Source of the DNA: Burkholderiales bacterium
GTDB lineage: Bacteria; Pseudomonadota; Gammaproteobacteria; Burkholderiales; CAIKXV01
Assembly (NCBI GenBank): GCA_019751575.1
Contig: JAIENF010000205.1
Location: forward strand, 1 to 13,907
Reading direction: 5' to 3'
Length of the DNA stretch: 13,907 nt
The translations under genes and the position numbers were made by a program. Below, piece after piece: positions 2 through 13,514 of this stretch (positions within the stretch are counted from its first letter, which is position 1; the number at the start of each line of letters is the position of its first letter). The notes beneath the pieces were generated by a model. That model did not search any database, was not told the origin of the DNA, and worked only from the letters and a program-made list of their open reading frames with translations.

Positions 2-1270
2 GGCTACGGGCTTGCCTTCCTGGTCGAGCAGCGCTTCTCGGCGGTGTTCGTCCTTGGCGCGGTCGTGCTCGCGGTGACCGGGGCCGAAGCGCTGTATGCC
101 GACATGGGCCACTTCGGGCGCAGGCCGATCCGCATCGCCTGGTTCGGGCTGGTGCTGCCGGCACTGATCCTCACCTACTTCGGGCAGGCCGCCTTGATGC
201 TGCGCGACCCGACCTCCATCCGCAATCCGTTCTACCTCATGTTCCCCGACTGGGCGCAGGCACCGATGCTGCTGCTTGCCACCGCGGCCACGGTGATCGC
301 CTCGCAGGCCGTGATCTCCGGGGCGTTCTCGATGACCCGGCAGGCGATCCAGCTAGGCTACTGCCCACGGCTGGCGATCGTGCACACCTCCGAGAACGAG
401 ATCGGGCAGGTCTACATCCCCTGGGTCAACTGGATGCTGCTTGCCGCGGTGATAGCACTGGTGCTGGGCTTCCAGTCTTCGGGAGCCCTGGCCTCGGCAT
501 ACGGCATCGCGGTCACCGGCACGATGGCCATCGATACGGTGCTTGCGGCGGTCGTGTTCCGCCGGATCTGGGGCTGGAGCTACCTGCGCACCGGCGCATT
601 CCTCACCGTGTTCCTGGCCATCGACCTCGCCTTCTTCGGCGCCAACACGCTGAAGGTGCTCGACGGTGGCTGGTTCCCGCTGATGCTGGGCCTGGTCGGC
701 TTCACGCTGCTGACCACCTGGAAGCGCGGACGCGAACTGCTGATGGGCAGCCTGCGCGAATCGGCGATCGATCTCAAGACGTTCATCGAAGGCCTGACCC
801 GCCACCCGCCCTCGCGCGTCGAGGGCACCGGCGTGTTCCTGACGGCCGATCGTGACGGCGTGCCGCATGCGCTGCTGCACAACCTGCTGCACAACAAGGT
901 CCTGCACGAACGCGTGTTCCTGCTGACCGTGGTCATCGCCGACGTGCCCTACGTGGCGTCCGACCAGCGCATCACGATCGAACCGCTGGGCAACGGCTTC
1001 TACCGGGTGCTGATCCACTTCGGCTTCCGGGACATACCGGACGTGCCGGCCGCCCTGGCGCGGCTGCCGGCCGCGGGCCAGCCGTTCGAGATGATGGAAA
1101 CCTCGTTCTTCCTGTCGCGCGAGACGGTGGTGCCGACGGTCAAGGCCGGCATGGCGCTGTGGCGGGAACGGCTGTTCTCGACGATGGCGCGCAATGCGGG
1201 CAGTGCCGCCACCTACTTCCGCCTGCCGCCGAACCGGGTGATCGAACTGGGCACGCAGGTGGAGATCTGA
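2..1270 (+). CDS. kup: Kup-family potassium uptake transporter, C-terminal part (5' end outside window)
   Basis: Low-affinity K+ uptake system of the inner membrane (KUP/HAK/KT family, H+-coupled). The reading frame is open from base 2, so about 422 C-terminal residues are present out of roughly 620-630 usual for the family; the GTG at 44 is internal, not a start. Visible signatures are the VLAVTGAEALYADMGHFG stretch, several hydrophobic membrane segments up to about residue 240, and then the cytoplasmic Kup C-terminal domain with the segment HNLLHNKVLHERVFLLTV, an FGFRD motif, METSFFLSRE, and the classic ending NRVIELGTQVEI just before the TGA at 1268-1270. It converges on the AraC-type gene with only 4 bases between the two stop codons. 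No functional link to the downstream catabolic genes is apparent. Family assignment is very secure. Confidence 0.97.
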   Translation, partial: GYGLAFLVEQRFSAVFVLGAVVLAVTGAEALYADMGHFGRRPIRIAWFGLVLPALILTYFGQAALMLRDPTSIRNPFYLMFPDWAQAPMLLLATAATVIASQAVISGAFSMTRQAIQLGYCPRLAIVHTSENEIGQVYIPWVNWMLLAAVIALVLGFQSSGALASAYGIAVTGTMAIDTVLAAVVFRRIWGWSYLRTGAFLTVFLAIDLAFFGANTLKVLDGGWFPLMLGLVGFTLLTTWKRGRELLMGSLRESAIDLKTFIEGLTRHPPSRVEGTGVFLTADRDGVPHALLHNLLHNKVLHERVFLLTVVIADVPYVASDQRITIEPLGNGFYRVLIHFGFRDIPDVPAALARLPAAGQPFEMMETSFFLSRETVVPTVKAGMALWRERLFSTMARNAGSAATYFRLPPNRVIELGTQVEI

Positions 1271-1274
1271 CGGC

Positions 1275-2255
1275 TCAGCGTACGCTGCCTGCACGCAGGC
1301 GATGCGCCGTGGCGGACGGCAACTCGCCGAACATCTGCCGGTAGTCGGCGGCGAACTGGCCGAGGTGCCAGAAGCCCCAGTCGAGCGCTGCATCGGTGAC
1401 GGCGGAGCCGCCCAGCAACGAACGGCGTGCACCATTGAAGCGCAATGCGCGCAGGTACGCGATCGGGCTCAGTCCGAGGACGTCCTGGAAGCAATACTGC
1501 AGCGTGCGCCGGCTGACCTCGAGCGCGGCGCACAGGCGGGCGACGTTCATCGGCTCATGCGGCGCCGCTTCGATCAGTTCACGCGCGCGCGCGACGAGGG
1601 CCCAGCGCGCGCGCAACTGCAGCGGCACCACGGCGGGCGCGCCGGCGTCCTCGAGCAGTTCGCACACATTGGCGACGATCGCATCCTTCAGCGCTGCGCG
1701 GGCATGGCGGTTGGACACCAGCACCGGCGTGGTCGCGAACGCCTCCATCAGGCCGGACACCAGGCGGCGCATCGATTCGAGGGCCTGCGGATCGGCGCAG
1801 CGTACCTGCGCCCGGTCGCCCATGCGGTCGAGCAGGCCAGCCGGGCCGTTCACGCCGCCGAGCGCGGACACGAGTTCCGGCGACAGCGCGATGCCGGCGA
1901 CCTGGTGGTCGGCCGGCGAGCAGAACTCGAAGCCATCCCGGCCCGAGTACACATAGGCCTGGTCGATCGAGCAGGCTTCTCCGCAGAAGCGGGCGGCACC
2001 CGCCAGCCGCAACGGCACGGCAACCGCAAGGGTGCCCCGCGCGAGGTGGCCGCGCTGCAGCAGTGCACGGTTGGCCGACTCGATGAACACATAGGTGCCC
2101 TCGAAGCTCACGGCGCGGACGCTGCCGTCGAACACGCCCCGGGACAGTTGCCAGTACGCCTGGTTCCAGCCGGGAAGGACCGCAGCCTGCTCCTGGGCAT
2201 CGAAGCACCGGAAAGCGGCGACGGGTGCTTCTGCAGGTTGCACGTTCACGGGCAT
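1275..2255 (-). CDS. AraC-family transcriptional regulator, EutR-like C-terminus
   Basis: DNA-binding regulator of 326 residues, cytoplasmic. The last ~110 residues form the AraC double helix-turn-helix: first HTH around 236-256 (MNVARLCAALEVSRRTLQYCF), second around 285-312 with GFWHLGQFAADYRQMFGE and then PSAT. The GFWHLGxFxxDYRxxFGExPSAT pattern is typical of the EutR-type branch of AraC regulators. The N-terminal ~200 residues are the presumed effector and dimerisation domain and carry no motif I recognise. The start at 2255 is supported by a strong GGAGG five bases upstream of the ATG on the minus strand. It is transcribed divergently from the phosphatase and the ethanolamine gene block, the usual arrangement for a local regulator. 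Inference: it senses ethanolamine or a pathway intermediate and activates the block. The family call is solid; the ligand and targets are not shown by the sequence. Confidence 0.92.
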   Translation of the reverse strand: MPVNVQPAEAPVAAFRCFDAQEQAAVLPGWNQAYWQLSRGVFDGSVRAVSFEGTYVFIESANRALLQRGHLARGTLAVAVPLRLAGAARFCGEACSIDQAYVYSGRDGFEFCSPADHQVAGIALSPELVSALGGVNGPAGLLDRMGDRAQVRCADPQALESMRRLVSGLMEAFATTPVLVSNRHARAALKDAIVANVCELLEDAGAPAVVPLQLRARWALVARARELIEAAPHEPMNVARLCAALEVSRRTLQYCFQDVLGLSPIAYLRALRFNGARRSLLGGSAVTDAALDWGFWHLGQFAADYRQMFGELPSATAHRLRAGSVR

Positions 2256-2551: not shown

Positions 2552-3247
2552 ATGCTTTCCGCCCGCAAGCTCGTGCACATGATCGTCGCCGCCACCGCGC
2601 TCGCGATCGCCGCCCCGGCCTTCGCCGCAGACAACGTGCTGCGCGTGTACATCGCCCGCCATGGCATCACCGACTGGAACGTCGCGCTGCGTGTCCAGGG
2701 CAACACCGACAACTCGCTCAACGAGACCGGCCGCAAGCAGGCGGCGGCGCTGGTCGAGCGCATGCGCGGCGTGCAGCTCGACCACATCTACACCGCAGCC
2801 CTGGTGCGCACCCGGCAGACTGCCGAGGGCTTCACCGGCGTGAAGCAGACGGCGATTCCCGGGCTGAACGAACGCAGCCACGGCAAGTTCGAGGGCATCG
2901 TCGACGATCCGAAGAACAATGCGCAAATGTCGGCCGAATACCGGCGCCGCATCCGCATCGTCGACGATTCGCTCGACGGCGGCGAATCGCTGGGCGACCA
3001 GTGGAAGCGCGTCGGCGCGGCCACCCGCGACATCCTGTCGCGGCACAAGAACGGGGGCAACATCCTGATCGTCGGCCACGGCGGCAGCAACCCGCAGATC
3101 ATGGCCGAGCTGCTCGGCCTCAAGCCGGACGAAGCACTGAACCGCGTGCGCCAGGCCAACGACGAGGTGTACATGATCGAGCTGCGTCCCGGACGTGCGC
3201 CGATGATCTGGAAGAACATCACGATGGCCACGCTCGAGGAGCTGTAA
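2552..3247 (+). CDS. Secreted histidine phosphatase (phosphoglycerate-mutase-like) family protein
   Basis: A 231-residue histidine-acid phosphatase/PGM-fold protein that acts through a phosphohistidine intermediate. The catalytic set is complete: RHG at 36-38 (nucleophile His37), NETGRKQA at 58-65, Arg86 in TAALVRTRQT, Glu107 in the LNERSHGKFEG block (105-115), GGES at 143-146, and the second catalytic histidine His176 in ILIVGHGG. The N-terminus is a Sec signal peptide (K6, hydrophobic 9-20, APAFA ending near residue 25), so the enzyme should be periplasmic or secreted, unlike cytosolic PGM or CobC. The ATG at 2552 has GAGGAA upstream. A perfect 11-bp hairpin follows the stop, suggesting it may end its own transcript. 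Substrate is unknown; its position next to ethanolamine genes allows, but does not prove, a phosphoethanolamine-type ester. Confidence 0.9.
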   Translation: MLSARKLVHMIVAATALAIAAPAFAADNVLRVYIARHGITDWNVALRVQGNTDNSLNETGRKQAAALVERMRGVQLDHIYTAALVRTRQTAEGFTGVKQTAIPGLNERSHGKFEGIVDDPKNNAQMSAEYRRRIRIVDDSLDGGESLGDQWKRVGAATRDILSRHKNGGNILIVGHGGSNPQIMAELLGLKPDEALNRVRQANDEVYMIELRPGRAPMIWKNITMATLEEL

Positions 3248-3255
3248 GCCACGCC

Positions 3256-3289
3256 CGGGCCGTCGCCGCACGCGCGTCGCGACGGCCCG
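3256..3289 (+). terminator. Strong hairpin after the phosphatase gene, possible terminator
   Basis: A perfect 11-bp inverted repeat (CGGGCCGTCGC at 3256-3266, its complement at 3279-3289) with a 12-base loop begins 8 bases after the phosphatase stop codon. It is followed only by TTCC, not a real T-run, so intrinsic termination would be inefficient by the E. coli rule. In high-GC genomes such structures often still mark transcript ends or protect 3' ends. It separates the phosphatase from the phytase-like gene. Confidence 0.45.
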
Positions 3290-3308
3290 TTCCTGCCGCA
3301 TTCCCCAG

Positions 3309-3334
3309 CCCGGACGGCGCGAACGCCCTCCGGG
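3309..3334 (+). promoter_or_regulatory. Hairpin in the leader of the phytase-like gene
   Basis: A second inverted repeat lies 19 bases beyond the first: 6 bp (CCCGGA/TCCGGG), one C-C mismatch, 4 bp (GGCG/CGCC) and a CGAA loop. It ends 33 bases before the ATG at 3368. There is no T-run. It could be part of a tandem terminator for the phosphatase or a 5' leader structure for the operon that begins at 3368; the sequence does not decide between these. Confidence 0.3.
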
Positions 3335-3367
3335 TCGCTGTCGAACCCACAGAACCGGAGATCTTCC

Positions 3368-4762
3368 ATGAGCTACCGACTGGTTTCGCTCGTTCGTCCG
3401 ATGGCCATTGCCTGCACCCTCGGGGTGTCGGCGATGATCGCCACCCCGGATGCCGTCGCAGCGCAGGCATTCCCCGCCACCCTCGTCGGGCAGGCCATCC
3501 TGCCGGCCGCGACGTTCACCAGGCCGCCGGCCGATGCGCCGGCCTCGATGGCCGTGTCCGGGCGCTTCACCCATCCGGACACGCGCCGCCGCGACCAGAT
3601 CGGCTCGATCCCCGGCATCTCGTTCCTGTCCGACCCCAAGGTTCCTCGCTTCACCGGCGTCGACACGCCGTTCAAGGGCCAGCCGATCCAGGGCTTCTCC
3701 GGCATCAAGTGGATGAAGGACGGCACCGCCTGGGTGACCGGCGACAACGGCTTCGGCACCCGTGCCAACTCGCCGGACGCGATGTTGATGTTCTACCACG
3801 TGCGCTTCGACTGGAAGACGCACCAGATCGTCATCCTGCGCACCGTGTTCCTGCATGACCCGGACGGCATCCTGCCGTTCAACATCGTCAACTCGGCGAG
3901 CAAGACCCGCTACCTCACCGGCGCCGACCTCGACATCGAGTCGATCCAGGTCATCGGCGACAACTTCTGGTTCGGCGACGAACTGGGCCCGTACCTGATC
4001 CGCACCGACCGCAACGGCAAGGTCACCGGCCTGTTCGAGACCGTGATCGACGGCCGCGTGGTGCGCTCGCCCGACCACTTCGCCGTGACCACGCCGAACG
4101 TGCCGGGGCAGTTCAACACGGTGGTGCGCCGCTCGCGCGGCTTCGAGGGCATGGCGGCCTCGCCGGACGGACGGTTCCTCTACCCGCTGCTCGAAGGCCC
4201 GATCTGGAACGAAGCGACCAAGGGCTGGGAGATGGCGGACGGCCGCGAAGCGCTGCGCATCCTCGAGTTCGACGTGCAGAAGGGCGCCTACACCGGCCGC
4301 TCCTGGCGCTACCAGCTGGAAGTCAACGGGCACAACATCGGCGACTTCAACATGATCGACGGCACCACCGCGCTGATCGTCGAACGGGACAACCGGGAGG
4401 GCATCCCGGAACTGGCCTGCAATGGCCCGGCACGCGCCGACTGCTTCAACGCACCGGCGCAGTTCAAGCGGGTCTACAAGATCGACCTCGGCGGCACCGC
4501 ACCGGACGGCGTGGTGCGGAAGATCGGCTACATCGACCTGCTCAACATCGCGGACCCGGACAAGCGCGCGAAACAGGGCACGATCGCCGGCCGGTTCACG
4601 ATGCCGTTCTGGTGCATCGAGAACGTCGACATCGTCGATGCGGACCACATCATCGTCGGCAACGACAACAACCTGACCGTGGGCGCCGGTCGCGAGCCCG
4701 GCAGGCACGAGGACAACGAGTTCGTGCTGCTGCGCGTGAGCGAGTTCCTGCGGGCCCTGTGA
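3368..4762 (+). CDS. Secreted esterase-like activity of phytase family protein
   Basis: A 464-residue exported protein resembling the 'esterase-like activity of phytase' family (PF13449 type), a beta-propeller-like fold found in periplasmic proteins of poorly defined substrate. The Sec signal peptide has basic residues R4 and R10, a hydrophobic core about 11-25, and likely cleavage after VAAQA (residue 34). Family-type blocks include GADLDIESIQVIGDNFWFGDELGPYLIRTD (185-214), GFEGMAASPDGRFLYPLLEGP (258-278), FNMIDGTTALIVERDN (327-342), and the late IIVGNDNNL block (428-436). Cys351 and Cys359 are close enough for a disulfide in the periplasm. GGAG precedes the ATG. The stop is only 13 bases before the ethanolamine permease, so the two are probably cotranscribed. 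Inference: it may hydrolyse a phospho-ester supplying ethanolamine. I see no direct proof of the substrate. Confidence 0.85.
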   Translation: MSYRLVSLVRPMAIACTLGVSAMIATPDAVAAQAFPATLVGQAILPAATFTRPPADAPASMAVSGRFTHPDTRRRDQIGSIPGISFLSDPKVPRFTGVDTPFKGQPIQGFSGIKWMKDGTAWVTGDNGFGTRANSPDAMLMFYHVRFDWKTHQIVILRTVFLHDPDGILPFNIVNSASKTRYLTGADLDIESIQVIGDNFWFGDELGPYLIRTDRNGKVTGLFETVIDGRVVRSPDHFAVTTPNVPGQFNTVVRRSRGFEGMAASPDGRFLYPLLEGPIWNEATKGWEMADGREALRILEFDVQKGAYTGRSWRYQLEVNGHNIGDFNMIDGTTALIVERDNREGIPELACNGPARADCFNAPAQFKRVYKIDLGGTAPDGVVRKIGYIDLLNIADPDKRAKQGTIAGRFTMPFWCIENVDIVDADHIIVGNDNNLTVGAGREPGRHEDNEFVLLRVSEFLRAL

Positions 4763-4775
4763 GCGGATATCCACG

Positions 4776-6158
4776 ATGAGCAACCTTCCCGGTTCCCCGC
4801 AGCTGCGCAAGACCCTGTCCACGTTGCAACTGTGGGGGATCGCGGTCGGCCTCGTGATCTCCGGCGAGTATTTCGGCTGGAGCTTCGGGTGGGCTTCGGC
4901 CGGCACCCTCGGCTTTCTGGTCACGACGCTGTTCGTGGCCGCAATGTACACCACCTTCATCTTCAGCTTCACCGAACTGACCACCGCGATCCCGCACGCA
5001 GGCGGGCCTTTCGCCTACGCGCGGCGCGCTTTCGGACCGACCGGTGGCTATTTCGCCGGTGCCGCCACGCTGGTCGAGTTCGTGTTCGCACCGCCGGCGA
5101 TCGCACTGGCGATCGGCGCCTACCTCAACGTGCAGTTCCCGTCCGTCGACCCGAAGCTGGCGGCGGTCGGCGCGTACATCGTGTTCATGTCGCTGAACAT
5201 CGCCGGCGTGCGCATCGCAGCCACCTTCGAGCTGCTGATCACTCTGGTGGCGGTGTTCGAGCTGCTGGTCTTCATGGGCGTGGTCGCCCCCGGCTTCTCG
5301 ATGGCAAACTTCACCGCCGGCGGCTGGGCCGGGGCAGACAGCTTCACGCTGGCAGCCATCCCCGGCATCATCGCGGCGATCCCGTTCGCGATCTGGTTCT
5401 TCCTGGCGATCGAGGGCGTGGCGATGGCGGCAGAGGAGGCGAAGGATCCGCGACGCTCGATCCCGGTCGCCTATGTCACCGGCATCCTGACCCTGGTCGC
5501 GCTCGCCTTCGGCGTGATGCTGTTCGCCGGCGGCGCCGGCGACTGGCGGCAGCTGTCCAACATCAACGACCCGCTGCCGCAGGCGATGAAGATGGTGGTC
5601 GGCGAATCCAGCGGCTGGCTGACCATGCTGGTCTGGCTCGGCCTTTTCGGGCTGGTCGCCTCGTTCCACGGCATCATCCTGGGCTATTCGCGGCAGTGGT
5701 TCGCACTGGCCCGCGCCGGCTACCTTCCGGTCTGGTTCGCGCAGCTGCATCCGCGCTTCCATACGCCGCACCGCGCGATACTCGCCGGTGGCGTGGTCGG
5801 CATCGCCGCGATCTTCAGCGACGAAGTGGTGAAGATCGGCGGACAGACACTGACCGCGAACATCGTCACCATGGCGGTTTTCGGGGCCCTCACCATGTAC
5901 ATCATCAGCATGCTTTCGCTGTTCCGGCTGCGCAGGACAGAGCCCGGGCTCGAACGTCCGTTCAGCGCGCCAGCCTACCCGGTGTTCCCCGCATTCGCGC
6001 TGTGCACCGCCGTGGCCGCGCTGCTGGCGATCACCGTGTTCAACCCGTTGATCGCAGCCCTGTTCGCGGGCTTCATGCTGGCCGGCTATGTCTACTTCCT
6101 GCTCACCGCCGGCCAGCGCGAACGGGCGGCCAGCGACCCGCTGCTCGAAACCCGCTGA
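4776..6158 (+). CDS. eat: Ethanolamine permease (APC superfamily, Eat type)
   Basis: Inner-membrane amino acid-polyamine-organocation transporter of 460 residues, about 12 hydrophobic segments, the normal size for Eat. The N-terminus shows the signature of ethanolamine permeases: LQLWGIAVGLVISGEYFGWSFGW (residues 18-40), then FTELTTAIPHAGGPFAYARRAFGPTGGY, the EGVAMAAEEAKDPRRSIP loop after the middle helices, and SFHGIILGYSRQWFALARAGYLP. Members of this subfamily import ethanolamine; related APC proteins import amino acids or polyamines, so an analogous amino alcohol is possible. The start at 4776 has only a weak GGA ribosome site, consistent with translational coupling to the gene ending 13 bases upstream. 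It is placed directly ahead of the degradative enzymes and is the strongest single clue to the pathway's substrate. Confidence 0.93.
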   Translation: MSNLPGSPQLRKTLSTLQLWGIAVGLVISGEYFGWSFGWASAGTLGFLVTTLFVAAMYTTFIFSFTELTTAIPHAGGPFAYARRAFGPTGGYFAGAATLVEFVFAPPAIALAIGAYLNVQFPSVDPKLAAVGAYIVFMSLNIAGVRIAATFELLITLVAVFELLVFMGVVAPGFSMANFTAGGWAGADSFTLAAIPGIIAAIPFAIWFFLAIEGVAMAAEEAKDPRRSIPVAYVTGILTLVALAFGVMLFAGGAGDWRQLSNINDPLPQAMKMVVGESSGWLTMLVWLGLFGLVASFHGIILGYSRQWFALARAGYLPVWFAQLHPRFHTPHRAILAGGVVGIAAIFSDEVVKIGGQTLTANIVTMAVFGALTMYIISMLSLFRLRRTEPGLERPFSAPAYPVFPAFALCTAVAALLAITVFNPLIAALFAGFMLAGYVYFLLTAGQRERAASDPLLETR

Positions 6159-6225
6159 GCGGCCAGCCAACCCCGCACGGCACCCGCCGCCTCGCCCCTC
6201 ACGTACTCAGGACTGAACGCCCACC

Positions 6226-7635
6226 ATGCGCGACCCGGCATCCGCTGGCTCCAGATCACCGGCCGACGTATCTGCAACCGCCGGCACGGAACACCCTGCG
6301 CTCGCCGCCGTGCGGGCGTCCGATACGGTCAAGGTCAAGGTCGCCTGCAGCGACATCGACGGCATCCTGCGCGGCAAGTACCTGCACCGCGACAAGTTCA
6401 TTGCGGCCGTGGAAGGGGGCTTCGGCTTCTGCGACGTGGTGTTCGGATGGGACGCGCATGACGCCTGCTACGACAACACGCAGGTCACCGGATGGCAGCA
6501 CGGGTACCCCGATGCGCTGGCGCGCATCGACCTCGGCACCGCGCGCCATGTACCGTGGGACGCAGGCGTGCCGTTCTTCCTCGGCGAGTTCGTCAACGCC
6601 GACGGCTCGGCCTTCCCCGTGTGTCCGCGGCAGACCCTGAAGCGGGTGCTCAGGCGCGCCGAGAAGCTGGGCTTCGCGCCGATGGCCGGCATGGAGTTCG
6701 AATGGTTCAACTTCGCCGAGACGCCGCAGAGCTGGGCGGCCAAACGCGGCGTCGGGCCGGAGACGATCACCCCGGGCATGTTCGGCTACTCGCTGCTGCG
6801 CATGGCGGACAACGGTGGCTTCTTCAATGCCCTGATGGACGAGATGGCGGCCTTCCGCGTCCCCATCGAAGGGCTGCACACCGAAACCGGCCCGGGCGTC
6901 TACGAGGTCGCGATCACCTTCAGCGAGGCCCTGGAAGCCGCCGACCGCGCGATCCTGTTCAAGACCGGGGCGAAGGAGATCGGCAAGCGCTTCGACGTGA
7001 TGCCCAGCTTCATGGCCAAGTGGAACGCGGCGCTGCCCGGCTGCTCGGGGCACATCCACCAGAGCCTCTCGGACGGCCGGAAGAACGTGTTCTTCGATGC
7101 CGCAGGCCGGCACTCGATGAGCGCGGTGTTCGAGAGCTACCTGGCCGGCCAGGTGGCGTGCCTGATGGAGTTCGCGCCGATGTTCTGGCCGACGATCAAC
7201 AGCTACAAGCGCCTGGTCGACGGCTTCTGGGCGCCGGTCAAGCCCACCTGGGGCTTCGACAACCGCACCGCGAGTTTCCGCGTCATCGCGGGCAGCCCGA
7301 AGTCCACCCGGCTCGAGACACGCTGCCCCGGCGCCGACGTGAACCCGTACCTGGCGATGGCCGCAGTGCTCGCCGCCGGCCTGGACGGCATCGAGAAGGG
7401 CCTGAAGCTCACTGCACCCGCGATCACCGGAACCAACCAGGGCGCGGAGAACGTGGCGCGCGCGCCGCGCTCGCTGCAGCAGAGCACCGCGAACTTCCGC
7501 GCCAGCGACATCGCCCGCGACTGGCTCGGGGACACGTTCGTCGATCACTTCGCCGCCACCCGGGAATGGGAGCACCGGCAATGGCAGGATGCGGTGACCG
7601 ACTGGGAATTGAAGCGCTACCTCGAGATCATCTGA
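6226..7635 (+). CDS. Glutamine-synthetase-family gamma-glutamylamide synthetase (probable gamma-glutamylethanolamide synthetase)
   Basis: ATP-dependent ligase of the GS fold, 469 residues, cytoplasmic. Motifs in order: MEFEWF (156-161), HTETGPGVYEV (218-228), catalytic-loop GCSGHIHQS (272-280), NSYKRLVDGFWAPVKPTWG (325-343), NR and FRV (346-353), RLETRCPGADVNPYLA (362-377), and the VTDWELKRYLEII tail typical of gamma-glutamylpolyamine/ethanolamide synthetases rather than of GlnA. No tyrosine lies in residues 376-464, where GlnA carries its adenylylated Tyr, so that control is probably absent. Residues 1-33 are a low-complexity extension, and the ribosome site (AGGA, 13 bases away) is poor, so the true start may be later. 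Known family members are PuuA (putrescine) and Streptomyces GlnA4 (ethanolamine). With a permease and ADH beside it, ethanolamine plus glutamate is the likely reaction; true glutamine synthesis is unlikely. Confidence 0.9.
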   Translation: MRDPASAGSRSPADVSATAGTEHPALAAVRASDTVKVKVACSDIDGILRGKYLHRDKFIAAVEGGFGFCDVVFGWDAHDACYDNTQVTGWQHGYPDALARIDLGTARHVPWDAGVPFFLGEFVNADGSAFPVCPRQTLKRVLRRAEKLGFAPMAGMEFEWFNFAETPQSWAAKRGVGPETITPGMFGYSLLRMADNGGFFNALMDEMAAFRVPIEGLHTETGPGVYEVAITFSEALEAADRAILFKTGAKEIGKRFDVMPSFMAKWNAALPGCSGHIHQSLSDGRKNVFFDAAGRHSMSAVFESYLAGQVACLMEFAPMFWPTINSYKRLVDGFWAPVKPTWGFDNRTASFRVIAGSPKSTRLETRCPGADVNPYLAMAAVLAAGLDGIEKGLKLTAPAITGTNQGAENVARAPRSLQQSTANFRASDIARDWLGDTFVDHFAATREWEHRQWQDAVTDWELKRYLEII

Positions 7636-8768
7636 TGACCATCACTCATTTTTCGTTTCCGACTGCCATCGCCTTCGGTGCCGGTGCGCGCAAGCAGGTC
7701 GCCGAACACCTCCTCGCGCGGGGCCTGAAGCGGCCGTTGATCGTGACCGACCGCGCGCTGGCTGCGCTGCCGGTGCTGTCCGAGTTCAGGGGCCACCTCG
7801 GTGGCCTGCATCCTGCCGTCTTCGATGGCGTGCACGGCAACCCCACCTGTGCGCAGGTGATGGCCGGCGCTGCAGCGTTCAAGTCGCATGGCGCCGACTG
7901 CGTGATCGGCTTCGGCGGTGGTGCCGCGCTCGACGTGGCCAAGGTCGTCGGCCTGATGGCCGTCCACGAGGGCGACATCCTCGAGTATGTCTGGGACCAC
8001 CCGAACGTCCGGCCCATCACCCAGCCCCTGCCCTGGTTCGTGGCGCTGCCGACCACCGCGGGCACCGGCAGCGAGGTCGGCCGCTCGGCCGTGGTGTCGG
8101 AGAACGACACGCACCACAAGCGGACCGTGTTCAGCGCGAAGATCCTGGCACAGGCGGTCTTCGCCGACCCGGAGCTGACGCTCGGCCTGCCGGCCGCGGT
8201 CACCGCAGCCACCGGCATGGACGCGCTGACGCACAACATCGAGAGCTACCTGTCGCCGGCCTACCATCCGCTGTGCGACGGCATCGCGCTGGAAGGCCTG
8301 CGCGTGGGCGCACGCGCGCTGGCGGTCGCCGTGCGCGAGCCGGGAAACCTGGCCGCCCGAACCGACATGATGATGAGCTCGATGATGGGCGCCATCGCCT
8401 TCCAGAAGGACCTCGGCTCGGTGCATGCCTGCGCCCATGCGCTGGGCGCCGTCTGCGACCTCCATCATGGCCTGGCCAACGCGCTGATGATCGACACCGT
8501 GCTCGCCTGGAACTTCGAAGCGGTGCCGGCGAAGTTCGACGCGCTCGCGCACGCGGCCAGGCTGTCCGGCGGCGGCACGGCCTTCGTCCCCTGGCTGCGC
8601 GAGCTCAAGGCGACGATCGGCATCAAGGGCGGCCTGGGTGCGCGCGGCGTGACGCGCGCGCAGCTGCCACGGCTGGTCGAGCTGGCGGACAAGGACTTCA
8701 CCAGCCAGACCAATCCGCGCAAGGCATCCGCATCGGATTACGAGCGGCTGTTCCTGGAGGCCCTGTGA
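7635..8768 (+). CDS. Iron-containing alcohol dehydrogenase, probably acting on gamma-glutamyl amino alcohol
   Basis: Group III Fe-ADH of 377 residues, normal length, NAD(P)-dependent. The dinucleotide-binding GGGAALDVAK (94-103) and LPTTAGTGSEV (138-148) motifs are present. By alignment with E. coli FucO (D196, H200, H263, H277), the metal ligands are Asp196 and His200 in GMDALTH, His264 in SVHACAHALGA and His278 in HHGLANA, all conserved with the same spacing. The ATG overlaps the GS-like stop by one base (TGATG at 7633-7637), so the long upstream extension of the same frame is antisense-free shadow, not coding. In this cluster it should oxidise the free hydroxyl of gamma-glutamylethanolamide to the aldehyde, the step PuuB performs by amine oxidation in the putrescine route. 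Direct ethanolamine oxidation is a less likely alternative. Confidence 0.92.
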   Translation: MTITHFSFPTAIAFGAGARKQVAEHLLARGLKRPLIVTDRALAALPVLSEFRGHLGGLHPAVFDGVHGNPTCAQVMAGAAAFKSHGADCVIGFGGGAALDVAKVVGLMAVHEGDILEYVWDHPNVRPITQPLPWFVALPTTAGTGSEVGRSAVVSENDTHHKRTVFSAKILAQAVFADPELTLGLPAAVTAATGMDALTHNIESYLSPAYHPLCDGIALEGLRVGARALAVAVREPGNLAARTDMMMSSMMGAIAFQKDLGSVHACAHALGAVCDLHHGLANALMIDTVLAWNFEAVPAKFDALAHAARLSGGGTAFVPWLRELKATIGIKGGLGARGVTRAQLPRLVELADKDFTSQTNPRKASASDYERLFLEAL

Positions 8769-9571
8769 GCCCTGCGGGCGAGCGACCGCTGCTGATCGGC
8801 GTCTCGTCGCGCGTCCTGTACCCGGACGCGACGACCGCGCCGATCGGCGGCGTGTTCACCAAGACCCTGCACTACCTGGAGCAGTCGGTCGCGCACTGGG
8901 TGCTCTCCAGCCACGCCATCGCAGTGATGATCCCGGCGGTCACGCGCGACAGCATCGTGACCCGCGCCGACCTGAACCTGGACGACTACGCCGCCGCGCT
9001 CGACGGCCTGGTCCTGCAGGGCGGGGCGGACATCGCGCCCGAGAGCTACGGCGAGGTGCCGTTGCGACCCGAATGGCAGGGCGACCGGCTGCGCGACCGC
9101 CACGAGATCGCACTGATCGACGCGTTCATCGCCGCCGGAAAGCCGATCTTCGGCATCTGCCGGGGCCTGCAGATGCTCAACGTGAAGTTCGGCGGCACGC
9201 TGTTCCAGGACATCGCGACCCAGCAGCCGGCGGCCCGGTCGCACCGCGAGCATGCGCGGTACGAGCAGCACGGGCACGAGATCGAGATCGTCCCCGGCAC
9301 GCGCCTGGCGGAACTGTGCCCGGGCGTGACCCGTGCCAGCGCCAACAGCATCCACCACCAGGGCATCAAGGACCTCGCCCCCGGTTTCGTGGTCGAGGCG
9401 CGCTGCCCGCAGGACGGCATCATCGAGGCGGTGCGCCGCCCGGGGCCCACCTACGTGGCCGCCGTGCAGTGGCACCCCGAGTTCCACGACAGGGCCGTGC
9501 CGGGCCAGTTCGACGACACGCCGTTGCTGAACGATTTCCTCCAGGCGGCAAGGGCCGCGCGAAAGACATGA
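8765..9571 (+). CDS. PuuD-like gamma-glutamyl amide hydrolase (class I glutamine amidotransferase fold)
   Basis: A 268-residue peptidase-C26-type hydrolase, close to the 254 residues of E. coli PuuD. The catalytic triad is visible: nucleophile Cys132 in FGICRGLQMLNV, and His237 and Glu239 in AVQWHPEF. GLVLQGGADIAPESYG (81-96) and SANSIHHQGIKDLAPGF (192-208) are further family blocks. The start is a GTG at 8765 overlapping the ADH stop by 4 bases (GTGA); GGAGG at 8756-8760 lies 4 bases before it, and no ATG in this frame fits the conserved N-terminus PLLIGVSSR. It should cleave the gamma-glutamyl amide bond of the last intermediate, here predicted gamma-glutamylglycine, returning glutamate to the ligase and releasing glycine. 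PuuD itself acts on gamma-glutamyl-GABA; substrate here is inferred from neighbours. Confidence 0.9.
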   Translation: MSPAGERPLLIGVSSRVLYPDATTAPIGGVFTKTLHYLEQSVAHWVLSSHAIAVMIPAVTRDSIVTRADLNLDDYAAALDGLVLQGGADIAPESYGEVPLRPEWQGDRLRDRHEIALIDAFIAAGKPIFGICRGLQMLNVKFGGTLFQDIATQQPAARSHREHARYEQHGHEIEIVPGTRLAELCPGVTRASANSIHHQGIKDLAPGFVVEARCPQDGIIEAVRRPGPTYVAAVQWHPEFHDRAVPGQFDDTPLLNDFLQAARAARKT

Positions 9572-10944
9572 GCCATCGACTCGAGATCCACAACCCCGCC
9601 ACCGGACGCCGGCTGGCCGATGTCGCAGCCGACAGCCCGGCCTCGGTCGCCCTCAAGGCAACCGCTGCACGTGCGGCGCAGCCGGGCTGGGCCGCCACGC
9701 CGATGACCGAGCGCCTTTCTGCGATCGGGCGGTTTCGCACGAGCCTGGCCGCCGGGATCGAGACACTGGCGACCACGTTGACGCAGGAGGTCGGCAAGCC
9801 CATCAGCCAGTCGCGCAACGAGATCAACGGCGTGCTGACACGCATCGACTTCTTCCTCGAGCAGACAGAAGCTGCGATCGGTGACGAGCATGTGTTCGAC
9901 GACGGCGCCATGCGCGAGCAGATCTCGCATGTACCGCTGGGCGTGGTCGGCAACATCTCGGCCTGGAACTATCCCTACCTGGTCGGCTGCAACGTGATCG
10001 TGCCGGCGCTGCTCACCGGCAATGCCGTGTTGTACAAGCCCTCGGAATACGCCGCGCTGACCGGCCTGCACATCACGCGGCTGCTGCATGAAGCCGGCAT
10101 ACCGGGAGACGTGATGCAGGCCGTCATCGGCGCCGCCGATGTCGGCACCGCACTGCTCGAGCAGCCGCTCGACGGACTGTTCTTCACCGGCAGCCACGCC
10201 ACCGGCGTGCGCATCGCCCAGGCACTGGCACCACGGCTGGTCAAGCTGCAGCTCGAGCTGGGCGGCAAGGACCCGGTCTATGTCCGCGCCGACGCCGACC
10301 CGAAGATCGCCGCCGAAAGCCTGGCCGACGGCGCGATGTACAACACCGGGCAGAGCTGCTGCTCGGTCGAGCGGATCTACGTCCACGCAAGCCTGCACGA
10401 CGCGTTCGTCGAGCATTTCATGGCCACGGTCGCCGGGTTCAGGCAGGGCGACCCGATGGCCGATGACACCTACATCGGTGCCATCACGCGCGCACCGCAG
10501 CTCGACGTGCTGGACGCGCAGGTGGCCGATGCGAGCGCGAGGGGTGCCACGCTGCGCTGCGGTGGAAAGCGCCTGCCCCAGCCGGGGAACTGGTACGCGC
10601 CGACCGTATTCACCGAGGTCGACCACACGATGGCGCTGATGCGCGAGGAGAGCTTCGGCCCGATCATCGGCATCCAGAAGGTCTCCGGCGACGACGAGGC
10701 CGTGGCACTGATGAACGACACCCGGTATGGCCTGACGGCTGGCGTGTTCACCCGCGACGAGGCATCCGCCCACGCGTTGCTGTCCCGGGTGAAAGCCGGC
10801 ACCGTGTACTGGAACTGCTGCGACCGGGTGAGCCCGCGCCTGCCCTGGTCGGGCCATGGCGACTCTGGGCTGGGCCTGACGTTGTCCACGCACGGCATCC
10901 AGGCCTTCACGCGACCCAAGGCCTGGCATCTGCGGCGTCCGTGA
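9568..10944 (+). CDS. Aldehyde dehydrogenase, probably oxidising gamma-glutamyl aminoaldehyde
   Basis: NAD(P)+-dependent ALDH superfamily enzyme of 458 residues, slightly shorter than the ~490 of PuuC-type enzymes. Key residues are in place: Asn134 in ISAWNYPY, KPSE (157-160), FFTGSHATG (205-213), Glu230 in LELGGKDPV, and catalytic Cys264 in NTGQSCCSVERIYV, with a second Cys directly after it; EESFGP marks the late conserved block. The ATG overlaps the hydrolase stop by 4 bases (ATGA at 9568-9571). In the proposed pathway it turns the gamma-glutamyl aldehyde made by the iron ADH into gamma-glutamylglycine. Gene order (hydrolase before ALDH) is not reaction order. It is the last gene of the block: a 130-base gap follows. 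Family is certain; substrate follows from context. Confidence 0.93.
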   Translation: MSHRLEIHNPATGRRLADVAADSPASVALKATAARAAQPGWAATPMTERLSAIGRFRTSLAAGIETLATTLTQEVGKPISQSRNEINGVLTRIDFFLEQTEAAIGDEHVFDDGAMREQISHVPLGVVGNISAWNYPYLVGCNVIVPALLTGNAVLYKPSEYAALTGLHITRLLHEAGIPGDVMQAVIGAADVGTALLEQPLDGLFFTGSHATGVRIAQALAPRLVKLQLELGGKDPVYVRADADPKIAAESLADGAMYNTGQSCCSVERIYVHASLHDAFVEHFMATVAGFRQGDPMADDTYIGAITRAPQLDVLDAQVADASARGATLRCGGKRLPQPGNWYAPTVFTEVDHTMALMREESFGPIIGIQKVSGDDEAVALMNDTRYGLTAGVFTRDEASAHALLSRVKAGTVYWNCCDRVSPRLPWSGHGDSGLGLTLSTHGIQAFTRPKAWHLRRP

Positions 10945-11074
10945 CGCCAGCGCCCCGGCTTCCCGGAATCGCAGTAGATTGTCGAGGCTCCCTGTTCCGA
11001 CACGGAGCGGGGGCATCGGCATCTGCCGAGCACGCGACCAACGACCACGCGACGCAGGCACGGGAGACGACAGC
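10945..11074 (+). promoter_or_regulatory. Gap upstream of the amidohydrolase, with small repeats
   Basis: 130 bases between the ALDH stop and the amidohydrolase start. It holds an inverted repeat TCGGC-ATCT-GCCGA at 11016-11029 and a direct repeat CACGCGAC at 11031-11038 and 11046-11053 (15 bases apart), then GGGAGA as ribosome site at 11062-11067. This is enough space for a promoter, and the repeats could be operator-like, but no convincing -35/-10 pair was found. It suggests that the amidohydrolase is separately expressed. Confidence 0.25.
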
Positions 11075-12589
11075 ATGGGCATGATGAGCGACGAGGACCT
11101 GGCAAGACTGGCACCGGCGGAATCCTCGCTGTTCGCCTCCCCGATACCGGTGCAGTCGGTCTCCTCGGACGAGTTCATGCCGGCCCCGCAGACCGAACGA
11201 CAGCGCGAGTTCGAAGCCCGCGTGAAGGCGATCGGCACGGAACTCGCAGGGCACCAGGGCATGACCCGGCGCGCGTTCTTCAAGACCTCCGCCGGCATGG
11301 CTGCCGCCTTCGTCGCGATGAACGAGACCTTCGGTCCGCTCTACATGGTGAGCCGGGCCGAGGCAGCCACGCCCGAGATGGCCAATGCCCGCTCGGCGGC
11401 GCTCAAGGGCCAGTTCATCATGGACATGCATACCCACTTCCTGCGCGACGACACGCGGCTGGAGGGCTTCGTGCGCTCGCGCGAGGCGGTCGGCCGCTCG
11501 GGCTGGAACCCGGCGCTCGCCGGCAAGCCGCAGACCCTCGAGGACCTGAAGTTCGCGAACTACTTCAAGGAGATCTACCTCGACAGCGACACCAAGGTCG
11601 CGCTGATCTCCGGCTCCGGCTCGGAGGACCCGCGCGACTGGTTCCTCACCAACGAGATGAAGGCCGATGCGCGCACCAACGTGAACACGAAGAGCGGCAC
11701 GAAGCGCATGTTCTCGCATGCGATCTTCATGCCGGGCATGCCCGGCTGGCTCGAGAAGGTCGATCGCGACCTCGAAGTGCTGAAGCCGGATTCGTTCAAG
11801 GGCTATACGGTCGGCGACAACACCAACAAGCACCTCGCGCGCCATCCCTGGCACCTGGACGACGAGAAGCTGATGTACCCGTTCTACGAGAAGCTGGTGA
11901 AGGCGAGCAAGGCCAACCCGAGCCTGGCCAACGTCTGCGTGCACAAGGGCCTGTTCCCGCCGTCGACGACCAAGCTGTTCCCCGACCTCGTCAGGTACGC
12001 CGACGTGCGCGACGTGGGCAAGGCCGCGAAGGACTGGCCACAGCTCAACTTCGTGATCTACCACTCCGGGTTCCGCTTCACTGGCGGCGCGCAGAACACC
12101 GGCTGGCAGCAGTTCGAGAGGACCGGGCGCATCGACTGGGTGACCGACCTCGCCGACATCCCGGCGAAGTACGGCGTGAACAACGTGTACGGAGACCTCG
12201 GACAGATCTTCGCGCAGAGCACGGTGGCCGAACCGCGCCTGTGCGCCGCGATGCTCGGCCAACTGGTCAACGGCCTCGGTGCGGACCGCATCGTATGGGG
12301 GACCGACGCGGTGTGGACCGGCGCACCGCAATGGCAGATCGAGGCGCTGCGCCGTCTCGAGATCCCTGAAGAGATGCAGAAGCAGCATGGATTCAAGCCG
12401 CTCGGTGCGCCCGATGGCCCGGTGAAGAACGCGATCTTCGCCGAGAACTCCGCCCGGCTGTACCGGTTCACGCCGGCGATGCGCGCCGGGCTCGAGAACG
12501 ACCTCGTCGCGCGTGCGAAGCGCATCTACGACGAGCAGGGCGACGGGCGGACCAACCTCGCGTACGGATACGTGGATCGCGGCGCCTGA
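11075..12589 (+). CDS. Metal-dependent amidohydrolase with an internal twin-arginine signal
   Basis: TIM-barrel amidohydrolase of the Amidohydro_2 (PF04909) type, 504 residues from the ATG at 11075, chosen for GGGAGA seven bases upstream. Metal-site candidates: His119 and His121 in MDMHTHF, His290 in VCVHKG, His330 in IYHSGF, and Asp411 in WGTDAVW. A Tat-like motif TRRAFFK (64-70) followed by a short hydrophobic stretch (SAGMAAAFVAM) lies after a 62-residue polar N-terminal segment, far deeper than in usual Tat signals. An in-frame ATG at 11261 would put the motif at the very N-terminus, with only a weak AGGG site. From memory, relatives in other proteobacteria also carry the long leader. Substrate is unknown: the family includes decarboxylases and hydrolases of cyclic or aromatic compounds. 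No clear tie to the ethanolamine block. Confidence 0.85.
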   Translation: MGMMSDEDLARLAPAESSLFASPIPVQSVSSDEFMPAPQTERQREFEARVKAIGTELAGHQGMTRRAFFKTSAGMAAAFVAMNETFGPLYMVSRAEAATPEMANARSAALKGQFIMDMHTHFLRDDTRLEGFVRSREAVGRSGWNPALAGKPQTLEDLKFANYFKEIYLDSDTKVALISGSGSEDPRDWFLTNEMKADARTNVNTKSGTKRMFSHAIFMPGMPGWLEKVDRDLEVLKPDSFKGYTVGDNTNKHLARHPWHLDDEKLMYPFYEKLVKASKANPSLANVCVHKGLFPPSTTKLFPDLVRYADVRDVGKAAKDWPQLNFVIYHSGFRFTGGAQNTGWQQFERTGRIDWVTDLADIPAKYGVNNVYGDLGQIFAQSTVAEPRLCAAMLGQLVNGLGADRIVWGTDAVWTGAPQWQIEALRRLEIPEEMQKQHGFKPLGAPDGPVKNAIFAENSARLYRFTPAMRAGLENDLVARAKRIYDEQGDGRTNLAYGYVDRGA

Positions 12590-12818: not shown

Positions 12819-13514
12819 ATGAATGACGCTGCAGAAGCCCTCGCATCCGGACAGAACGAACGGCGCAGCACCCGCCCGGGAAGCGCGACCCGCAGTGCGA
12901 TCGCGCGCCGGTCTGGCGCACTCGTCCTCGCCGGCGCGATCGCCCTTGGCGGCTGTGCCACCAACCAGGAAAGCGGCACCCTGGTCGGTGCACTCGGCGG
13001 CGCAGCCGTGGGTGCCGCCGTGGCCGGTGGCTCGCCCGAGCGCCGCATCGTCGGCGCACTGATCGGCGCGGCTGCGGGCGGCTTTGCCGGATCGCTGATC
13101 GGCAAGCGGCTCGACGAGGCCGACCGCCAGCGGGCCGAAGCCGCAGCCCAGAAGGCGATCGCCGAGCGCGAGGCAGCGGCGGCGCGCGAGCAGCAGCAGC
13201 GCAATGCCCAGATCGAAGCGCAGCTGCGCGCGGAGCAGGCGAAGGCCCGCACCCCGCAGGACCGGGCCGCCGCCGAGAGTCGCGCACTCGAGGCACGCCA
13301 GCGCGTCGCCCAGCAGGGACCGAACAACTCGGCCCCGCCGGTCACCTGGACCGGCAACGCCCGCGGCAGCGCGCAGGCCATCGGTCCGACCCAGGTCGCC
13401 GGGCGCGACGGCTGCGAACAGGTCCGCGAGATCGCGGTGATCCAGGGCCAGGAAGTCCGGCAGACCGCGACGTTCTGCCGCGACCCGAGCACCGGCTCGC
13501 GCGTACGCGTCTGA
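12819..13514 (+). CDS. Glycine-zipper envelope lipoprotein with 17-kDa-antigen-like tail
   Basis: A 231-residue exported lipoprotein of unknown function. The start at 12819 is preceded by AGGGG with 7 bases spacing; an upstream in-frame ATG at 12684 lacks such a site. The N-region is long (about 32 residues, with RR at 30-31), then a hydrophobic stretch and a lipobox ALGGC, so Cys46 should be lipidated. Residues 53-96 form a glycine zipper (GTLVGALGGAAVGAAVAGG, then GALIGAAAGGFAGSLIG), common in outer-membrane lipoproteins. Residues 99-165 are Ala/Glu/Arg/Gln-rich and probably coiled coil. The C-terminal ~55 residues with Cys199 and Cys220 resemble the ending of rickettsial-type 17-kDa surface antigen proteins and may hold a disulfide. 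It overlaps the next gene by one base, so the two are likely coexpressed. Confidence 0.82.
   Translation: MNDAAEALASGQNERRSTRPGSATRSAIARRSGALVLAGAIALGGCATNQESGTLVGALGGAAVGAAVAGGSPERRIVGALIGAAAGGFAGSLIGKRLDEADRQRAEAAAQKAIAEREAAAAREQQQRNAQIEAQLRAEQAKARTPQDRAAAESRALEARQRVAQQGPNNSAPPVTWTGNARGSAQAIGPTQVAGRDGCEQVREIAVIQGQEVRQTATFCRDPSTGSRVRV

Follow-up and report, generated by a model that had tools for sequence, protein, structure and literature searches.

A five-gene cassette predicted to degrade ethanolamine through gamma-glutamylation in a Burkholderiales bacterium

The window analysed here, a stretch of 13,907 nucleotides from a Burkholderiales bacterium (assembly GCA_019751575.1, contig JAIENF010000205.1), is the whole of one contig (C792) in a 3.8 Mb assembly of 807 contigs that is 84% complete (genome G000). 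Five genes encoding a permease and four enzymes lie head to tail on its plus strand. An original prediction made from this DNA had read the block as a complete gamma-glutamylation pathway for ethanolamine, and the borders given there are exact, with the permease start at 4776 and the stop of the aldehyde dehydrogenase (ALDH) gene at 10944. The genes are as follows.

4776..6158, plus strand: Eat-type ethanolamine permease of the APC superfamily (TIGR00908, 629.3 bits against a cut-off of 381.75)
6226..7635, plus strand: glutamine synthetase (GS)-like gamma-glutamyl ligase, proposed gamma-glutamylethanolamide synthetase (PF00120, 303.7 bits; W335)
7635..8768, plus strand: iron-containing alcohol dehydrogenase (ADH), proposed gamma-glutamylethanolamide dehydrogenase (PF00465, PF25137)
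8765..9571, plus strand: PuuD-like C26 hydrolase, proposed gamma-glutamylglycine hydrolase (Peptidase_C26 PF07722, 187.8 bits)
9568..10944, plus strand: ALDH, proposed gamma-glutamylacetaldehyde dehydrogenase (PF00171, 422.9 bits)

The four enzyme genes overlap by one base between the ligase stop and the ADH start, by four bases (GTGA) between the ADH and C26 genes and by four bases (ATGA) between the C26 and ALDH genes; the C26 gene opens with a GTG codon at 8765. The same gene order is repeated in two genomes of the genus (G009 and G004), on contigs of 42 and 57 kb, and an assembly artefact was rejected on that ground.

The families and the neighbourhood of the genes indicate that the five genes probably form one ethanolamine-catabolic cassette acting through gamma-glutamylation; ethanolamine as the substrate, the order of the steps, co-transcription and regulation are predicted from the same evidence. 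Eat would import ethanolamine, which the ligase would couple, using ATP, to the gamma-carboxyl group of glutamate, yielding gamma-glutamylethanolamide. The iron ADH would oxidise the hydroxyl group of this compound to an aldehyde, the ALDH would convert the aldehyde to gamma-glutamylglycine, and the C26 hydrolase would release glycine and return the glutamate. This chemistry, already put forward in the original prediction, is the best-supported reading in view of the Eat score, the lost ammonia-site Glu, the lack of an EutB match and the published set of GS, iron ADH and ALDH; its novelty does not stand, since a route with the same intermediates has been published. The accompanying claim that the route protects against a free aldehyde holds only in part: free acetaldehyde would be avoided, but gamma-glutamylacetaldehyde is itself an aldehyde.

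The permease is confidently predicted to be an ethanolamine transporter; besides its score, it is 70-75% identical to the Eat adjoining EutB in three genomes (L046, L047 and L048). The ligase, as judged from its sequence, is GS-like and not an ammonia ligase. It scores below the curated cut-offs of all four NCBIfam GS models matched (for example TIGR00653, 200.6 against 429.15, and GGputSyn, 174.8 against 650). The GlnA of the same genome has FDGSS, NSYKRLVPGFEAP and NLYDL, compared with NSYKRLVDGFWAP, NLYDL missing, in the window ligase. At the ammonia site, GFEAP in GlnA corresponds to GFWAP in the ligase, a change from Glu to Trp (W335) that is universal in the two ligase groups that we name clade I (84 of 84 rows) and clade II (13 of 13 rows). 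PF00120 and C26 are families common to GlnA and the Puu pathway, and the ligase might on this account be a glutamine synthetase or a polyamine ligase of the PuuA/GlnA3 type, the block then assimilating or detoxifying polyamines. This is scarcely credible, as the ligase lies far under the GlnA and gamma-glutamylputrescine synthetase cut-offs and has Trp for the ammonia-site Glu, the C26 hydrolase scores 98.6 against 266 for PuuD, and the block has an alcohol dehydrogenase in place of a PuuB-type amine oxidase, for which it contains no gene. An ordinary glutamine synthetase and a polyamine ligase were both rejected on the scores and the Glu to Trp change.

The two enzymes proposed for the oxidation steps of the ethanolamine route are also consistent with it. 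The ADH and ALDH families (PF00465 and PF00171) stand in one cluster with their catalytic stretches present. GMDALTH, HACAHALG and HHGLANA of the ADH we take to be the metal site, and GICRGLQ and WHPE of the C26 hydrolase and ELGGK and GQSC of the ALDH are presumably catalytic motifs. Solved relatives of the C26 hydrolase are Lin1909 (3fij) and PuuD (6vtv). A scan of named genomes gave 584 confirmed candidate ligase loci, from which the best 80 were kept. In 57 of these the sequence runs on for 4.5 kb or more beyond the ligase, and an ADH gene lies downstream in 50, a C26 gene in 41, an ALDH gene in 46 and all three in 39; with the recurrence in G009 and G004, these counts speak against a chance arrangement. 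Two of the named loci come from the window's genus and so are not independent of it (L051 is G009 and L052 is G008), and L036 and L109 are identical. The record of L106, titled Bordetella parapertussis, is a metagenome bin, and its name is probably a label error.

In a quick tree of the ligases, built without bootstrap, the nearest named neighbours of the window ligase among the best 80 of 584 loci are two uncultured 'Betaproteobacteria bacterium' assemblies. The window ligase is 45-52% identical to those of clade II, whose gene order is GS-ALDH-FeADH in a sample of 100 related genomes that includes G000 (the order sample); on gene order alone, clade II would be the clade of the Chromohalobacter salexigens and Phaeobacter sp. 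MED193 ligases. The ligase is also 39% identical, over 92-97% of its length, to two copies of IpuC (gamma-glutamylisopropylamide synthetase) of Paenarthrobacter aurescens TC1, one of them near genes for a C26 hydrolase, ALDHs and a short-chain dehydrogenase. Together with the several different transporters found within the ligase clade, this leaves some room for a different small amino alcohol (alaninol, 1-amino-2-propanol, 3-aminopropanol or serinol) as the substrate of the same gamma-glutamyl reactions, in which case Eat would be an amine permease of relaxed specificity. We regard this as unlikely, because Eat scores as a true ethanolamine permease and adjoins EutB elsewhere in the order, the combination of GS, iron ADH and ALDH is the published ethanolamine set, and the ligase is nearer to the GS-ALDH-FeADH clade than to IpuC.

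A more distant ligase (32%) was observed with an Eat-like permease, an ALDH and an iron ADH in another genome (G357; L162, 5890-11402), and it is another lineage of the same module design.

The distribution of Eat in the order sample agrees with an ethanolamine cassette that takes the place of the B12-dependent lyase. EutB (PF06751) was not matched in the window's genome, with a positive E. coli control, an absence limited by an assembly that is only 84% complete and in 807 contigs. Eat scores above its cut-off in 11 of the 100 genomes, none of which combines EutB with a clade I or II ligase. It stands beside EutB in six, all without such a ligase (G017, G067, G030, G056, G058 and G019), and beside a ligase, with EutB missing, in five (clade I in G000, G004, G008 and G009; clade II in G041). 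In three further genomes (G025, G073 and G083) an Eat-like permease below the cut-off lies beside a ligase. EutB overall occurs in 17 of the 100 genomes.

Comparisons of the surrounding site within the genus showed that the five genes are gained or lost as one unit. The flanking features of the window are as follows.

2..1270, plus strand: kup, cut by the window edge
1275..2255, minus strand: EutR-like AraC-family regulator (NF007522 EutR, 157.2 bits; cut-off 319)
2552..3247, plus strand: histidine phosphatase with a leader-like N-terminus, a companion of uncertain relevance (PF00300, 136.6 bits)
3368..4762: phytase-like esterase
4769..11061: gain/loss unit, without a blastn counterpart in the sister genome G003, which keeps both flanks
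11075..12589: amidohydrolase
ending at 13514: glycine-zipper protein gene

The sister genome G003 (L152) carries kup, the EutR-like gene, the phytase-like gene and the amidohydrolase gene at the same site, and the five genes and the histidine phosphatase are missing between them; its positions 2598-4051 and 4213-5104 match positions 3315-4768 and 11062-11953 of the window by blastn. Genome-wide, G003 lacks a clade I or II ligase and any Eat match of more than 49 bits, its ADH, C26 and ALDH content not having been searched. Across the 11 genomes of the genus, Eat and the ligase are found together in four and are both missing in seven. Thus, the retention of both flanks in G003 and the joint presence or absence of Eat and ligase show that the cassette is gained and lost as a whole. 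The full arrangement is present in G004 and G009, where the histidine phosphatase accompanies the cassette; the cassette and kup lie on different contigs in G008. At the site in G002 (L151) there is no EutR-like gene, and the phytase-like gene is reduced to 265 bp. In G005 (L045, 809-3421), of the same genus, eutB directly follows kup, near the position of the cassette in the window. The kup site carries either catabolic type, depending on the species.

The phytase-like and amidohydrolase genes were considered as obligatory members of the pathway and rejected, as G003 keeps both without the five genes. Two exported-looking phosphatase/phytase-like proteins are encoded directly upstream of Eat (2552-4762). 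The pair might conceivably have a part in cleaving phosphoethanolamine, but the phytase-like gene is also present where the cassette is absent. Scans of the window gave no Rfam match at the gathering threshold and no tRNA, and promoter and terminator counts were the same as in shuffled sequence.

The EutR-like AraC regulator gene upstream of the cassette, on which the original prediction was silent, could possibly regulate it. Its relatives are divergent from Eat or the ligase in four loci of other genera (L069, L080, L088 and L098), and in one of these (L069, Polaromonas sp. OV174) the EutR-like gene lies between phnW and the ligase.

Analysis of the relatives revealed an aminoethylphosphonate context that is not visible from the window alone. 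Upstream regions were compared by tblastn in 67 of the best 80 named loci, those whose sequence extends 1.4 kb or more ahead of the ligase; the other 13 were dropped for short flanks. phnW lies on the same strand within 2.5 kb in 25 loci (including L061, L064, L062, L070, L071, L077, L081 and L095), Eat or an Eat-like gene in 9, both in none and neither in 33. Upstream sequence reaches 8 kb or more at 17 of the phnW loci, and of these 15 have phnS2, 15 phnU2 and 13 phnA. In L061 (Aquabacterium terrae), phnR, phnS2, phnT2, phnU2, phnW, phnA and phnY all score above their curated cut-offs, and the ligase frame opens 13 bases past phnW (a mechanically assigned start). No Eat was matched at E 1e-60 in 23 of the 25 genomes with a phnW-linked ligase; one of the other two has an Eat above the cut-off and one a weaker match, and no ligase accompanies either of these in the 16 kb examined. 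EutB was not found in 33 of the 34 genomes (of unstated completeness) behind the phnW- or Eat-linked loci, and the lone match spans 134 of 435 model positions. On a plasmid of Rhizobium leguminosarum, the surroundings of a more distant ligase (47.5%) include a phnW-annotated gene and genes for a C26 hydrolase, a GMC oxidoreductase and an ALDH.

At two further loci (L085, 8318-9838, and L093), a divergent amino-acid permease occupies the place next to the ligase that Eat or phnW has elsewhere; the one in L085 is TIGR00907-like and below the cut-off.

The phnW linkage, the complete phn set of L061 and the scarcity of Eat in these genomes would fit a core module that acts on an aminophosphonate-linked compound (for example hydroxylated aminoethylphosphonate), with the use of ethanolamine in the window as a secondary recruitment. 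This is very improbable, because phnW, phnY and phnA, where a locus has all three, are already enough to break down aminoethylphosphonate, and aminoethylphosphonate has no alcohol group for the iron ADH. Moreover, no alignment column separates the 5 Eat-context from the 23 phn-context Burkholderiales ligases (L115 was omitted because it lies outside the main Burkholderiales group), and Eat precedes the ligase in 4 of the 7 rows of the mostly Bacteroidota group that branches first in clade I. Context labels for the tree were taken from clusters of open reading frames (23 phn, 1 phn with EutR and 11 Eat among 99 rows). The phn and Eat contexts are more clustered than shuffled labels, yet interleaved, with well-supported branches forcing at least eight changes for phn and at least four for Eat. 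The interleaved contexts and the lack of a separating column favour one substrate with exchangeable uptake.

A tentative extension of the ethanolamine reading, possible if still somewhat doubtful, is that the ligase-ADH-C26-ALDH genes form a cartridge for turning ethanolamine into glycine that can be exchanged between contexts. Many Burkholderiales would carry it within the phnS2-T2-U2-phnW operon, whose phosphonate importer and regulator would serve the headgroup amines of both phosphono- and phospholipids; in the window's genus it would stand behind Eat near kup, the position of eutB in a sister species. phnW, phnY and phnA should suffice for aminoethylphosphonate, and joint headgroup scavenging is suggested as the explanation for the module in those operons. 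In a bolder form, the module in the phn operons may act on an aminophosphonate-derived compound. Among the papers listed in searches of one open-access library, none links ethanolamine gamma-glutamylation with aminoethylphosphonate; in three phosphonate papers searched by term, no word begins with 'ethanolamine', and PMC8316502 has the single instance of 'glutamine'.

Several observations weigh against an ethanolamine cassette of this kind. The EutR-like gene falls below the equivalog cut-off and does not qualify as EutR, and it persists in the cassette-free G003, which weakens its standing as a dedicated cassette regulator. Of the 57 loci with sufficient downstream sequence, 16 showed no C26 gene beyond the ligase, 7 no ADH gene and 11 no ALDH gene, and Eat is a minority upstream context (9 of 67, against 25 for phnW and 33 for neither). 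G083 has EutB on another contig, the only such case among the 15 genomes of the order sample with a clade I or II ligase. In a phylum sample of 398 genomes, Eat scores above the cut-off in 40, of which 36 have EutB; of the four without it, only G000 has a clade I or II ligase, and G272, G314 and G463 lack this ligase too. One genome of this sample, G353, combines EutB with a clade II ligase. The pairing of Eat with EutB or else with a ligase of these clades, seen in 11 of 11 genomes of the order sample, is weakened as a general rule, as it is not repeated in the phylum sample.

In G272 (L158) and G314 (L159), Eat is followed by a class-III-type aminotransferase gene, and an APH-family gene lies beside Eat in G272 and G463 (L160). 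These neighbours possibly fit an ethanolamine kinase and phospho-lyase route, which we assume from their families.

The predicted cassette would extend B12-free use of ethanolamine, the amine of a common phospholipid headgroup, to many uncultured and some cultured Burkholderiales. The module's recurrent linkage to aminoethylphosphonate genes suggests that phospho- and phosphonolipid headgroups are scavenged together and raises the question of what those operons import and degrade.

Comparison with known systems indicates that the predicted route is already known and that the window presents a variant of it, distinguished by the Eat permease, the C26 hydrolase, another gene order and its own ligase clade. 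Ethanolamine gamma-glutamylation has been published for C. salexigens and Agrobacterium tumefaciens C58, as cited in PMC9397018, PMC6529630 and PMC10132767. In that pathway and the window, the PF00120 ligase, PF00465 iron dehydrogenase, PF00171 ALDH and the proposed intermediates and products are alike. However, the C. salexigens set (PF00120, PF00465, PF00171 and PF05013; PMC9397018, Table 2) ends with a PF05013 N-formylglutamate amidohydrolase, whereas the PF07722 C26 hydrolase sits in the window cluster, and its uptake is described there as a TRAP transporter with an ethanolamine-binding protein instead of Eat. The ethanolamine operon of Phaeobacter sp. MED193 (MED193_10021-10056), induced on phosphorylethanolamine (PMC10132767), likewise joins a ligase, an ALDH, an alcohol dehydrogenase and a gamma-glutamylglycine amidohydrolase; by its description, it differs in its RpiR regulator, its EtoVWX TRAP importer and its order ligase-ALDH-ADH, compared with ligase-ADH-C26-ALDH in the window.

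GlnA4 of Streptomyces coelicolor makes gamma-glutamylethanolamide, as established by high-performance liquid chromatography and mass spectrometry (cluster SCO1610-1615; excerpt of PMC6529630). According to the same excerpt, the ammonia-site Glu is lost in GlnA4 (Phe) and PauA7 (Trp), so that GlnA4 and the window ligase (Trp) are alike, by description, in an aromatic residue at this site. Both clusters also contain a glutamine amidotransferase-type gene (orf5 in the Fig. 2 legend), whereas orf2 of that legend is a short-chain dehydrogenase in contrast to the iron ADH of the window; the excerpt reports another permease in some species and no Eat homologue. The Ipu cluster on pTC1 of P. aurescens TC1 shares a GS-like ligase (IpuC, 39%) with C26 hydrolase and ALDH genes nearby, but has P450, ferredoxin and reductase genes and no annotated iron ADH or Eat in the stretch read.

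The Puu pathway (PuuA-PuuB-PuuC-PuuD) follows the same sequence of gamma-glutamylation, oxidation and hydrolysis with related ligase and hydrolase families, and its oxidation step is carried out by an amine oxidase; the window ligase, ALDH and hydrolase are all below the Puu cut-offs, and the window would oxidise with an alcohol dehydrogenase. The short eut operon (eat-eutBC, sometimes with eutR) resembles the window in Eat (70-75% in three genomes) and in the EutR-like protein (35-37% in two). The window has no EutBC, and the gamma-glutamyl module occupies that position, showing that Eat can stand beside either the B12 lyase or the gamma-glutamyl module.

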